A stretch of 64,000 nucleotides of DNA from Oscillospiraceae bacterium (GTDB lineage Bacteria; Bacillota; Clostridia; Oscillospirales; Ruminococcaceae). The notes under the pieces are model-generated. The model was not told the origin of the DNA, ran no database searches, and saw only the letters and a program-made list of their open reading frames with translations. Shown one piece after another: positions 5,901-14,000 of the stretch. Both the position numbers and the translations under genes were made by a program. Within the stretch, counting starts at the first letter, position 1; every line of letters begins with the position of its first letter. Location of the stretch: positions 1-64,000 of the forward strand of contig CADASU010000001.1 of the NCBI GenBank assembly GCA_902790675.1, given 5' to 3'.

Positions 5901-6530
5901 TGGATTTAAAGCATTCTTTCTAAACTCATCTACTAAATCCATATCCATCATATTTTTTAGTTCATCATAATCCCAAACTTCAATTTTTTGTATCTCATGA
6001 GACGTTCTAAATCCATCAAAAAAATTTAAAAATGGAACTTTGCCTTTTAAAGCAGACAAATGAGCAACAGGCGTTAAGTCCATAACTTCCTGGACAGAGC
6101 TCTCTGCAAGCATAGCATATCCTGTCTGACGACACGCATATACATCAGAATGATCTCCAAATATTGACAAAGCGTGGGTTGAAACACACCTAGCCGAAAC
6201 ATTTATAACTCCTGGCAATTTTTCCCCAGCCATTTTATACATGTTCGGTATCATAAGCAAAAGGCCCTGAGAAGCTGTAAACGTCGTTGTTAAAGCTCCT
6301 GCCAGCAGCGAACCATGAACTGCTCCAGCCGCTCCCGCTTCGGACTGCATCTCAGCAATTTTAACCGGATATCCAAATATATTTTTTCTACCAGAAATAG
6401 CCCACTGATCAGAAACCTCTGCCATAGTAGAGGAAGGGGTAATAGGATATATAGCAGCAACATCGGTATATGCATAAGAAACATGCGCAGCTGCAGTGTT
6501 CCCATCCATAGTTTTTTTTATTCGATTCAT
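3000..6530 (-). CDS. nifJ: Pyruvate:ferredoxin (flavodoxin) oxidoreductase
   Basis: This 1176-residue enzyme converts pyruvate and CoA to acetyl-CoA and CO2 and reduces ferredoxin, the central anaerobic pyruvate reaction. All domains are fused in the usual single-chain clostridial order. They are the N-terminal pyruvate-binding domain (YPITPSSTMAE near residue 28), the CoA-binding and linker regions, and two 4Fe-4S motifs (CIQCNFCSYVCPHA and CTGCGSCVNVCP, ~residues 690-760). The C-terminal thiamine-diphosphate domain has ACAGCGETPYAKL and GGDGWAYDIGYGG. Full length for the family. The start at 6530 has AGGAGAGG upstream. It is monocistronic, divergent from htpG, with its own promoter. Acetyl-CoA from it could feed the acetate kinase at 42 kb. 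Confidence 0.97.
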   Translation of the reverse strand: MNRIKKTMDGNTAAAHVSYAYTDVAAIYPITPSSTMAEVSDQWAISGRKNIFGYPVKIAEMQSEAGAAGAVHGSLLAGALTTTFTASQGLLLMIPNMYKMAGEKLPGVINVSARCVSTHALSIFGDHSDVYACRQTGYAMLAESSVQEVMDLTPVAHLSALKGKVPFLNFFDGFRTSHEIQKIEVWDYDELKNMMDMDLVDEFRKNALNPNHPVLHGSAQNGDIYFQNFEAGNPYYDNLPDIVMEYMNEVNKRIGTNYKPFNYYGASDATHIIVAMGSVCDTIEETVDRLVESGEKVGAVKVHLYRPFSAKYLLDAIPDTVKKISVLDRTKEPGSIGEPLFLDVVAALKGTKFENIPVFGGRYGLASKDTNPTQIKAVFDNKDKAHFTIGINDDVTFLSLPLGENFDTAQEGTMSCKFWGLGSDGTVGANKNSIKIIGNNTDMYAQAYFAYDSKKSGGVTVSHLRFGKHPIKSSYLISKADFVACHNSSYISKYDIVQDVKPGGTFLLNCSWKNDELEEHIPDNVKAYIANNDIKFYTIDGIKIGKEIGLGGRINTVLQAAFFKLTEIIPIDEAKKLMKDAATASYSSKGEKIVKMNHDAIDMGVQKVVEVDVPDSWKTISTKEKTKQAKVNDEKLNDFIDNVLKPINAQKGDCLPVSAFSKYANGFLPQGTAAFEKRGVAVDVPCWNKENCIQCNFCSYVCPHAVIRPAVMTEEEAEKAPKGQDVDQMIGNSDYKFAVTVSVLDCTGCGSCVNVCPGKKGNKALSMRPLNSQLEKQKGFAYGQSLSVKADVFDKFKETTVKGSQFKKPLLEFSGACAGCGETPYAKLATQLFGDRMYIANATGCSSIWGGSAPSTPYTTDKNGNGPAWANSLFEDNAEFGFGINFAQETLRNRLIGKLENLSKNSNEKVSSAIEKYIQTKDDSKNNKIATDHLIEVLNEQNVGKDILKYKDYLNKKSVWIFGGDGWAYDIGYGGLDHVIASGENVNIMVFDTEVYSNTGGQSSKSTPTGAVAKFAAGGKNIKKKDLASIAISYGYVYVAQVAMGANYNQCIKAMLEAEAYDGPSLIICYAPCINHGIKAGMGKAQTEEKNAVAAGYWHLFRFNPNGENKKLTIDSKEPTSNYRDFLMGEVRYNSLFRKNPEKAEYLFEKAEIESNNKYEYLKKLEDIYTTNSSEN

Positions 6531-11848: not shown

Positions 11849-11970
11849 TCATACCTCCAATAATTAAATTTCTAATTTATTATATTAAAAATTTAAAATA
11901 TTGTTCTTTAAATAATCAATATTTTTATATTAACTACTAAATTAAAAAATTAATAGGTTTAAAGCGCAAC

Positions 11971-12009
11971 AAAAAGTTCACGAGCATAAAACCATACCCG
12001 TGAATTTTT
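11971..12009. terminator. Terminator downstream of GG-peptide cluster
   Basis: GTTCACG (11976-11982) pairs with CGTGAAT (11999-12005), flanked by A5 and T5 runs that extend the stem; it could act on both strands. It lies 160 nt past the last peptide gene. The remaining DNA between 11849 and 12172 shows no convincing gene. Confidence 0.65.
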
Positions 12010-12172
12010 ATTAATAAAATATAAGACTGACGTTTAAAAAAACACTTCGACGATATAAATATTACAGTAAGAAAGCACTCGACTCGTTACATCCGTAAAT
12101 TCTCGCTATGTTTCTTCTGAATCTAATCTTAAAACATAATTCCCTTGAAACATTTCCTATCATCTTCTAACA

Positions 12173-12418
12173 TCAGGGTTTAAATACCTTGCTACCCTGA
12201 GTGCCAATCATTGTACCATCTGCGTTAAAAAGTGAAACTGTGGAAGAACCATTTTTAAATTCAGTAGTAATGGTATAGGTGCCATCAGATTGCATTTCTT
12301 TTTTCACACTTGTTACCTCTGAAGGCGCTGACTTACCGCCAGTAGCGCACCAACCCCCAGCTACATTTTCTAATTCCTCGTCATTAATTTCTCCCGAAAC
12401 TTTCTTTTCTTTTTTCAA
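12173..12418 (-). CDS. Double-glycine leader peptide, paralogue 5 (start-impaired)
   Basis: This frame encodes KKVSGEINDEELENVAGG, the leader shared by the four upstream paralogues. A ~60-residue tail follows, beginning WCATGG and ending in the pattern YTITTEFKNG..VSLFNADG. It has lost the usual MAKEN N-terminus and the AGGAGG site; the only in-frame initiator is TTG at 12418, 12 nt after the stop of paralogue 4. Translation, if any, would be by reinitiation. The gene may be decaying after unequal recombination. Confidence 0.6.
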   Translation of the reverse strand: MKKEKKVSGEINDEELENVAGGWCATGGKSAPSEVTSVKKEMQSDGTYTITTEFKNGSSTVSLFNADGTMIGTQGSKVFKP

Positions 12419-12430
12419 TTACGATTAATA

Positions 12431-12682
12431 CTAGTACCTAATACTAGTACCAGCGTGCCTACCATCTGGGCCAAAATTCATAATAATTGTTTCACCACCC
12501 TTACATTTAGTCTTCACCACTTTGCTACCATTTTTTAATGTTTCCGATGTAAAGCTCTCTATATATTCTGCTGGTACTTCATCCATAGACATTCCGCCAG
12601 TAGCACACCAGCCTCCAGCTACATTTTCTAATTCCTCGTCATTAATTTCTCCCGAAACTTTCTTTTCGTTTTCTTTAGCCAT
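12431..12682 (-). CDS. Double-glycine leader peptide, paralogue 4
   Basis: An 83-residue peptide starting at ATG 12682 (MAKENEKKVSGE), with AAGGGGG ten nt upstream. The leader ends ELENVAGG, the double-glycine processing motif of bacteriocin-type precursors. The putative mature part starts WCATGGMSMDEVP and is the most divergent of the set; it keeps a central KVVKTKCKGGETI strand-like region and FGPDGRHAG, and has a second cysteine. The gene has no promoter cassette and follows paralogue 3 by 75 nt, so it is probably cotranscribed with it. Function unknown. Confidence 0.8.
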   Translation of the reverse strand: MAKENEKKVSGEINDEELENVAGGWCATGGMSMDEVPAEYIESFTSETLKNGSKVVKTKCKGGETIIMNFGPDGRHAGTSIRY

Positions 12683-12757
12683 AGTAATCAACCCCCTTAG
12701 ATTTAATTTACAAATCATAAACTCCAATGTTTAACATTTAGCTTAAATCACTACTAC

Positions 12758-12970
12758 TCACGGATAATAGTCTTGAGTCGTACCATCTTGGAATACAAAA
12801 CGCATACCACCTTTGCCGTCTGTGCTTTTAATATGTCTTACAGTTTTTATCAAACCGCGTACCTCTTTAGGCGCGCTCTTTCCACCAAACGCACACCAAC
12901 CTCCAGCTACATTTTCTAACTCCTCGTCATTAATTTCTCCCGAAACTTTCTTTCCATTTTCTTTAGCCAT
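12758..12970 (-). CDS. Double-glycine leader peptide, paralogue 3
   Basis: A 70-residue peptide starting at ATG 12970. The leader MAKENGKKVSGEIN..ELENVAGG matches its neighbours. The mature part, about 46 residues, begins WCAFGGKSAPKEVRG and ends GGMRFVFQDGTTQDYYP, shorter than the others and lacking the FGPDG tail. The first promoter cassette copy (12971-13121) lies directly upstream, so this gene probably heads a three-gene unit with paralogues 4 and 5. No modification enzyme, transporter or immunity protein adjoins it. Confidence 0.8.
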   Translation of the reverse strand: MAKENGKKVSGEINDEELENVAGGWCAFGGKSAPKEVRGLIKTVRHIKSTDGKGGMRFVFQDGTTQDYYP

Positions 12971-13121
12971 AGTAATCAACCCCCTAGCTTTAATTTACAA
13001 ATCATAAAATCACGCGTTTGTGTATTGTTATATAACATATTATACTCAAAAAATTATAAAAAACAAGTATTTTTATATAAAATTAACAAATTTATCGTTT
13101 TGTCTTTATTATCTACCTTTA
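12971..13121 (-). repeat. 151-bp promoter cassette, copy R1
   Basis: Nearly identical to copies R2 and R3. On the minus strand it carries TTGTTT (13066-13061), a 16-nt spacer, TATAAT (13044-13039), an untranslated leader and the ribosome binding site GGGGG for paralogue 3. Confidence 0.85.
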
Positions 13122-13140
13122 CACATTACCTAGTCCATTA

Positions 13141-13389
13141 TTATTTATTATTAAAAACATCGCCACTACCTTTCAATTTACCATCTGGCCCAAAAACTGA
13201 TTGAACTTCATTACCATCACTAAATGTAGTATTAATTTGATAGTTGCCTCCGCCTAGATCTACTCTTTTTATACTTTTTACTCCTTTAGGCATTGACTGA
13301 CCACCAGTGGCACACCAGCCTCCAGCCACATTTTCTAATTCTTCTGCATTAAGTTCTCCCGAAACTTTCTTTTCATTTTCTTTAGCCAT
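13141..13389 (-). CDS. Double-glycine leader peptide, paralogue 2
   Basis: An 82-residue peptide whose start, ATG 13389, is nine nt after AGGAGG. An in-frame TTG three codons earlier abuts the binding site and is unlikely. The leader MAKENEKKVSGELNAEE..VAGG is identical to that of paralogue 1. The mature part, ~58 residues, begins WCATGGQSMPKGVKSIKR. It continues with an alternating pattern (YQINTTFSDGNEVQSVFGPDG) that suggests a small beta-sheet fold rather than an amphipathic helix. One cysteine, two residues after the predicted cleavage site. It has its own promoter cassette (R2). Confidence 0.85.
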   Translation of the reverse strand: MAKENEKKVSGELNAEELENVAGGWCATGGQSMPKGVKSIKRVDLGGGNYQINTTFSDGNEVQSVFGPDGKLKGSGDVFNNK

Positions 13390-13540
13390 AGTAATCAACC
13401 TCCTAGCTTTAATTTACAAATCATAAAATCACGCGTTTGTTTATTGTTATATAACATATTATACTCAAAAAATTATAAAAAACAAGTATTTTTATATAAA
13501 ATTAACAAATTTATCGTTTTGTCTTTATTATCTACCTTTA
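13390..13540 (-). repeat. 151-bp promoter cassette, copy R2
   Basis: Same length and near-identical sequence to R1 and R3. TTGTTT (13485-13480), 16 nt, TATAAT (13463-13458), then AGGAGG before paralogue 2. It fills the whole gap between two peptide genes, so the duplicated unit is cassette plus gene. Confidence 0.85.
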
Positions 13541-13541
13541 A

Positions 13542-13790
13542 TTATTTATTATGAAAAACGTCAGCACTACCCGCTAATTTACCATCTGGCCCAAAAACTG
13601 ATCGAACTTCATTTCCATCATTAAACGTAACGCTAATTTCATAGTGACCCCCGCCTACATCTATTCTTTTGATATCTTTTACTCCTTTAGGCATTGACTT
13701 TCCACCAGTGGCACACCAACCTCCAGCTACATTTTCTAGTTCTTCTGCATTAAGTTCTCCAGAAACTTTCTTTTCATTTTCTTTAGCCAT
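13542..13790 (-). CDS. Double-glycine leader peptide, paralogue 1
   Basis: An 82-residue peptide from ATG 13790 with AGGAGG nine nt upstream; first gene of the array. The leader (residues 1-24) ends ELENVAGG. The predicted mature part WCATGGKSMPKGVKDIKR is followed by YEISVTFNDGNEVRSVFGPDG and ends DVFHNK. It closely resembles paralogue 2, pointing to recent duplication. Leaders of this kind are normally cut and exported by a C39-peptidase ABC transporter, but none is encoded here. Bacteriocin, signal peptide or other secreted role cannot be decided from sequence. Confidence 0.85.
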   Translation of the reverse strand: MAKENEKKVSGELNAEELENVAGGWCATGGKSMPKGVKDIKRIDVGGGHYEISVTFNDGNEVRSVFGPDGKLAGSADVFHNK

Positions 13791-13941
13791 AGTAATCAAC
13801 CTCCTAGGTTTAAATTATAAATCATAAAATCACGCGTTTGTTTATTGTTATATGACATATTATACTCAAAAAATTATAAAAAACAAGTATTTTTATATAA
13901 AATTAACAAATTTATAATTTTATCTTTATTATCTACCTTTA
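13791..13941 (-). repeat. 151-bp promoter cassette, copy R3
   Basis: Third copy, with a few substitutions relative to R1/R2. TTGTTT (13886-13881), 16 nt, TATAAT (13864-13859). It occupies half of the 13791-14102 gap, which also holds the divergent dat promoter. Confidence 0.85.
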
Positions 13942-14000
13942 TATGAATATTTTTAATATAACTATTATTATCTTTTTAAAACATCTTTTTATACATAACA

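Follow-up and report, generated by a model that had tools for sequence, protein, structure and literature searches.

A lineage-specific array of double-glycine peptides and its putative NHLM-type exporter, encoded elsewhere in the genome

Main findings

The 64,000-nucleotide stretch of Oscillospiraceae DNA analysed here (the window) contains a tandem array of five genes for small double-glycine peptides. This is a lineage-specific set, with the cargo family found only in the window's own genome (G000; 1.19 Mb in 13 contigs, including C1, C3, C5 and C7) among the genomes and contigs searched. Its gene content suggests that the organism is a clostridium able to form spores. The array is real, is undescribed in the libraries searched, and would work like known NHLM/LahT-type export, in which many precursors are served per transporter. 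It is probable, judging from sequence, that these are short-leader precursors handled in trans by the NHLM/NHLP exporter encoded on C3, forming a diversifying set used most plausibly for interbacterial antagonism. Transcription of the array genes would be driven by a shared promoter, and the C39 peptidase on C3 would cleave after VAGG, releasing peptides of 46-59 residues that start with Trp-Cys. Modelling predicts that each released peptide forms a small, antiparallel beta-sheet from which the WCxxGG segment extends as a flexible arm. Purifying selection would keep the leader, as this is the part read by the exporter, while the cargo diverges.

The array represents a traceable case of export-repertoire growth: members of one cargo family follow a long Nif11 leader at the exporter locus but short leaders in the array, a promoter element is shared, and four sister species have an empty site. 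If active, these would be small folded proteins using a peptide exporter, of a kind overlooked by searches restricted to the vicinity of transporters.

A tandem array of five short-leader genes

Five open reading frames, all on the minus strand and spanning positions 12173-13790 of the window, confirmed the array:

13542-13790, minus strand: g5, 24-aa double-glycine leader and 58-aa WCATGG cargo; own promoter element and AGGAGG ribosome site
13141-13389, minus strand: g4, 24-aa leader and 58-aa WCATGG cargo; 84% identical to g5; own promoter element
12758-12970, minus strand: g3, 24-aa leader and 46-aa WCAFGG cargo with a shorter C-terminus; own promoter element
12431-12682, minus strand: g2, 24-aa leader and 59-aa WCATGG cargo with a second Cys; ribosome site, without promoter element
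12173-12418, minus strand: g1, 22-aa leader and 59-aa WCATGG cargo; TTG start, without a clear ribosome site

The near-identical leaders (22-24 aa) follow the consensus MAKEN[EG]KKVSGE[LI]N[AD]EELENVAGG, and the cargos, of 58, 58, 46, 59 and 59 aa from g5 to g1, all begin WCA[TF]GG. The shared leader ending in ELENVAGG and the mature part starting WCxxGG, as set out in a preliminary description of this DNA, were therefore borne out in all five frames; the single conserved N-terminal Trp-Cys that it also proposed is present in every cargo, although g2 carries a second Cys. A DNA pattern for the GG-WCA junction, GGNGGNTGGTGYGC, matched the 1.19 Mb genome five times, always within the array, and its reversed control had no matches. 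The first frame, g1, lacks an ATG, with its TTG start lying 12 bp past the stop codon of g2; as it also lacks a clear ribosome site, its expression is doubtful.

None of the genes next to g1-g5 encodes a transporter, an immunity protein or a modification enzyme; the array is flanked by Amidase_3+SH3 and Aminotran_4 genes. No immunity gene was recognisable beside the structural genes, and the flanking genes are also paired in sister species without the array. The amidase was ruled out as a functional partner, as it holds the same place in these array-less species. Searches of Pfam, NCBIfam and PHROGs returned nothing above cut-off, or with a convincing E-value, for the array proteins.

Duplication, insertion and distribution

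At the DNA level, the array arose by tandem duplication and its copies, spaced 401-419 bp apart, have since diverged; the two youngest remain 89% identical. Comparing g4 with g5, dN and dS were 0 and 0.33 in the leader, and 0.127 and 0.372 in the cargo. Hence leader and cargo have similar silent divergence but amino acid change is limited to the cargo, a pattern that fits a leader constrained by the exporter and a cargo that is free to vary. All pairs resemble this one, with leaders conserved at the protein level, where there is far less change than at silent sites, and cargos that diverge much more. As dN/dS is below 1 for g4 and g5, this pair does not demonstrate positive selection.

Alignment with the closest sister genome delimited the segment that holds the array:

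~11924-13985 (~2.06 kb), strand not applicable: inserted segment holding the array, from alignment with G004

The amidase and aminotransferase genes adjoin in four sister species (G004, G006, G003 and G002), where the gap between them is 192-812 bp, versus 2254 bp in G000; the array is absent from the equivalent site in all four. Such a species-specific insertion could also be a recent arrival that is now mostly relict or silent, without present function, and the missing ATG and clear ribosome site of g1, as well as the short g3, are in keeping with decay. Yet all five frames are open, leader protein change is far below silent change in every pair, and three copies retain both promoter and ribosome site, making this improbable.

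Homologues with WCxxGG in other genomes had been named beforehand as a check, and none carrying the cargo was found outside G000: scans of genome contigs, viral contigs, and phage and plasmid sequences (by tblastn) gave no other carrier, and neither the cargo profile over 397 family genomes nor the full profile over 394 order genomes identified a further family member. Weak cargo-profile matches in five family genomes fall in long proteins, the best (G384) being a 348-aa lipoprotein-like ORF, and among the order genomes, G233 has a weak full-profile match with an internal stop. VAGGWC was rejected as a signature of the family: at its 36 loci, the leader-bearing short ORFs have unrelated, mostly Cys-rich cargos, and many of the others are chance occurrences. 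This lone junction recurs in unrelated Nif11-type peptides. Separately, Deltaproteobacteria SURF_52 (L049) has approximately nine double-glycine peptides in a dense array, several with GWC-containing, Cys-rich cores, and no exporter-gene homologue within the 8 kb examined.

A single exporter, probably acting in trans

Export of the array peptides in trans by the single NHLM exporter on C3 is well supported by several sequence comparisons. Firstly, the presence of a C39 transporter in the genome, another check named in advance, was confirmed: there is exactly one C39 peptidase (C3:10100-10492, 123.5 bits), located within an NHLM-type transporter, NHLM_ABC1, encoded at L002:10052-12241, and the domain retains the expected Cys, His and Asp motifs in its sequence. 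Both transporter components exceed their model cut-offs (NHLM_micro_ABC1, TIGR03796, 959 bits versus 853; NHLM_micro_ABC2, TIGR03797, 728 bits versus 709); the HlyD-like partner is short, reaching 29.6 bits against TIGR03794 over positions 1-53 only, below the cut-off of 156.2. These genes lie in an operon-like run on C3, in the order STAS, GH3-family, SpoIIE-type phosphatase, HATPase_c_2, short HlyD-like protein, NHLM_ABC1 with C39, NHLM_ABC2 and radical-SAM/SPASM enzyme, and then Nif11-type double-glycine peptides. Hence the original observation that no C39 transporter or modification enzyme adjoins the array holds locally, but not for the genome, as C3 encodes a radical-SAM enzyme as well as a C39 exporter.

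Secondly, the leaders have the appropriate residues. In the C39 peptidase LahT, leader residues -4, -7 and -12 sit in a hydrophobic groove, the last 13 leader residues suffice, and short leaders are also cut (PMC6363468). All five array leaders have V at -4, L at -7, L or I at -12, and GG at -2/-1, and match the C39 recognition pattern because these are the same residues as those bound by LahT; with one C39 peptidase in the genome, the earlier view that this leader type is suited to C39 export is supported.

Thirdly, the pattern ELxxV[A/S]GG has 17 matches in the genome, versus 0 in the reversed control, spread over five loci: the window, C1:206 kb, C3, C5:77 kb and C7:27-30 kb. At the C5 locus (L128:5152-5956), which is remote from the exporter, two double-glycine peptides with longer leaders are encoded in tandem.

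Fourthly, G002, G003, G004 and G006 also carry this NHLM exporter. Across eight related genomes, it was above cut-off in these four and G000, and double-glycine leader matches occurred in the same five of the eight genus genomes and in none of the three others (one-sided exact p = 1/56, ignoring kinship). As the matches in sister genomes cover mainly the leader, this co-occurrence concerns the leader type and not the cargo.

Lastly, a cargo paralogue, the sixth copy of the family, is present on C3 itself (L002:18956-19381), with a Nif11 leader followed by a cargo, VAKWCWWSS...DGGYRIDTMYLDGIVETTYYNANGEEEGT, that resembles those of the window. Using an HMM of the five cargos with the leader removed, and even without WCxxGG, this paralogue outscored all 2000 shuffles; against TIGR03798 it reached 31.4 bits, with a cut-off of 32.3. 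The finding of a matching exporter elsewhere in the genome therefore places the array as a new branch within a type of peptide-export system already known, and not as a system in its own right. The suggestion that the set is an undescribed exported peptide family stands insofar as the searched libraries contain no such family, but the set is not isolated, being one of several scattered double-glycine loci and having a cargo paralogue with a Nif11 leader.

A putative promoter element and likely transcription units

A scan for promoter-like sites using a general consensus found 12 in the region, versus 12.2 expected, and such sites are thus no more frequent than chance; an element conserved across loci was therefore used as the evidence for promoters instead. 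This 16-bp element, TTTTTGAGTATARTRT, has eight copies in the genome at ≤1 mismatch, and none in the reversed control. Six of the eight are intergenic, all 5' of double-glycine genes, at three unlinked short-leader loci, with the other two within coding genes; no copy occurs at any Nif11 gene of C3. Hence the short-leader genes appear to form a separate family under common control. The elements in the array, and a possible terminator, are:

13857-13872, minus strand: promoter element TTTTTGAGTATAATAT upstream of g5, conserved 16-bp element
13456-13471, minus strand: promoter element upstream of g4, conserved 16-bp element
13037-13052, minus strand: promoter element upstream of g3, conserved 16-bp element
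11977-12004, minus strand: intrinsic-terminator-like hairpin downstream of g1 (1 found versus 0.7 expected by chance)

Over 160 bp, the regions upstream of g5, g4 and g3 are 92-95% identical to one another, and neither g2 nor g1 has such a region. Therefore the likely units are g5, g4 and g3-g2-g1, the last being probably one transcription unit, in which g2, having no promoter element, is probably read from the g3 promoter. The DNA 5' of g3 also matches that 5' of the peptide gene at C1:206 kb (C1:206436-206504), with 81% identity over 68 bp (E 1.9e-10).

Two loci outside the window were noted. At C1:202-207 kb (L039:2237-6843), two short-leader double-glycine genes with the 16-bp element lie beside genes that, by eye, are phage portal/terminase-like. 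On C1 of the sister genome G003 (L042:7684-8691), there is an unlinked short-leader array particular to that species, with other cargos, unrelated flanks and no promoter element.

Predicted cargo fold and possible roles

The cargo is probably a small beta-sheet, as the preliminary description had proposed from the letters: an AlphaFold2 model of moderate confidence, built from the five sequences, has four strands, with a mean pLDDT of 77 (86-88 in residues 11-50), a pTM of 0.54, and a poorly defined WCxxGG arm. The C3 paralogue was modelled with the same four-strand layout (pLDDT 73), but this is not independent, as it was built on the same family alignment. Foldseek searches of PDB and BFVD returned generic small beta-sheets only, none at E<=0.001. 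A sequence match to CPAP (E 0.002) was rejected, as no stretch passes alone and the match reflects repeated "dG" strands. The cargos are near neutral and hydrophilic, with charges of -0.2 to +3.8 and GRAVY of -0.43 to -0.64. Without modification, the g5, g4 and g3 cargos would have average masses near 6151, 6093 and 5135 Da, respectively.

A secreted, bacteriocin-like role in competition with close relatives may be tentatively proposed, at a little under even odds. What favours this form of antagonism is that the cargo occurs in several copies, changes quickly and is restricted to a single species; however, there is no recognisable immunity gene, and hydrophilic, near-neutral cargos are unlike typical pore-forming class II bacteriocins. 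These same properties, the lack of a nearby immunity gene and the hydrophilic, near-neutral beta-sheet, would suit peptides exported as proposed but acting as signals, or as cell-surface or matrix proteins, for the producer's own population, and the STAS/SpoIIE-phosphatase/HATPase set at the exporter locus suggests tight regulation. Nevertheless, the cargo family is missing in all sister species and its copies diverge, which would be unusual for a shared signal, and such a function is considered unlikely.

Comparison with known systems

The proposed trans export resembles the NHLP/N11P precursors with their TransFuse-TransCleave-TransABC cassette (TIGR03794/03796/03797/03798; Haft et al. 2010, PMC2887384), in that both transporter families exceed curated cut-offs, and in the many precursors per genome, the double-glycine end, and the one cargo paralogue with a Nif11-type leader. 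It differs in that the window leaders, at 22-24 aa, match no Nif11 or nitrile-hydratase leader model, with TIGR03798 giving no match to any of the five window proteins, and in that the cargo looks, from its model, like a folded beta-sheet domain rather than a Cys/Ser/Thr-rich core. The LahT/LahA1-9 system of Lachnospiraceae bacterium C6A11 (PMC6363468) likewise combines one tolerant C39 exporter with many Nif11-type precursors of diverse cores, and recognition through V-4, L-7 and L-12; in that case, however, the precursors lie within the transporter cluster, whereas many of those in G000 are dispersed, and leaders in the window array are short.

Class II bacteriocins (PF10439, TIGR03949, TIGR01847) share the short leader ending in GG and the expectation of a small secreted product, but the array has no adjacent transporter or immunity gene, and its cargo is hydrophilic, near neutral and predicted to be beta-sheet. 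The best array scores fell below the cut-offs of all three models (14.8 versus 27.1, 17.3 versus 21.5 and 13 versus 15.7 bits, respectively). As these model tests were not passed, the array belongs to neither TIGR03798 nor the class II bacteriocin models. Weak similarity to the CTB family bacteriocins of cyanobacteria (NF038167) is centred on the leader end, at 14-19 bits, and misses the cut-off of 32 bits.

The radical-SAM enzyme and other features of the exporter locus

The radical-SAM/SPASM enzyme (L002:14488-15876) has intact motifs and lies in the exporter locus, with none adjacent to the array. It exceeds no curated NCBIfam maturase cut-off, as is the case for its family, and Pfam searches found no PqqD-like leader-binding domain at its N-terminus. 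It might modify the peptides before export, for instance at the Trp-Cys start, making them RiPPs: its gene directly follows the transporters, its CxxxCxxC and SPASM cysteines are kept across nine homologues, and homologues with 41-42% identity adjoin VAGGWC peptides in Lachnospiraceae, rumen Clostridiales and Synergistales. The link between enzyme and WC is nevertheless weak: WC was already part of the search pattern, and the enzyme also occurs in sister genomes that lack WC cargos. Furthermore, the five window precursors lack a Nif11 leader, the probable docking site for such an enzyme, which itself passes no known maturase model. Modification of the array peptides is considered unlikely. A more extensive scheme, in which one NHLM exporter serves a promoter-coordinated, genome-wide set, with whole folded beta-sheet proteins, and not only short linear cores, swapped behind Nif11 or short leaders, and with the radical-SAM enzyme modifying the Trp-Cys start before export, is improbable.

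More generally, this radical-SAM/SPASM family (homologues L062, L072, L076, L077 and L082) has invariant cluster cysteines and accompanies NHLM-type double-glycine peptides in several phyla. Directly 5' of the exporter, the GH3-family gene and the STAS/SpoIIE-phosphatase/HATPase partner-switching set (L002:5300-9536 on C3 of G000; L041 in G002; L046 in G006; L130 in G004) are conserved across the genus, with STAS not seen in the G006 stretch examined; a STAS protein with 63% identity is also encoded close to the peptide locus on L062, a contig from rumen Clostridiales. Several peptides of the C3 run have counterparts in G004, the closest sister, which lacks any WC cargo. Four species of the genus retain a double-glycine peptide with a conserved CKG[FI]G core (L002:18550-18870, L044 at ~2196, L043 at ~4796 and L046 at ~13987), while the other cargos of the run change; this peptide is a candidate for a shared signal or a substrate of the radical-SAM enzyme.
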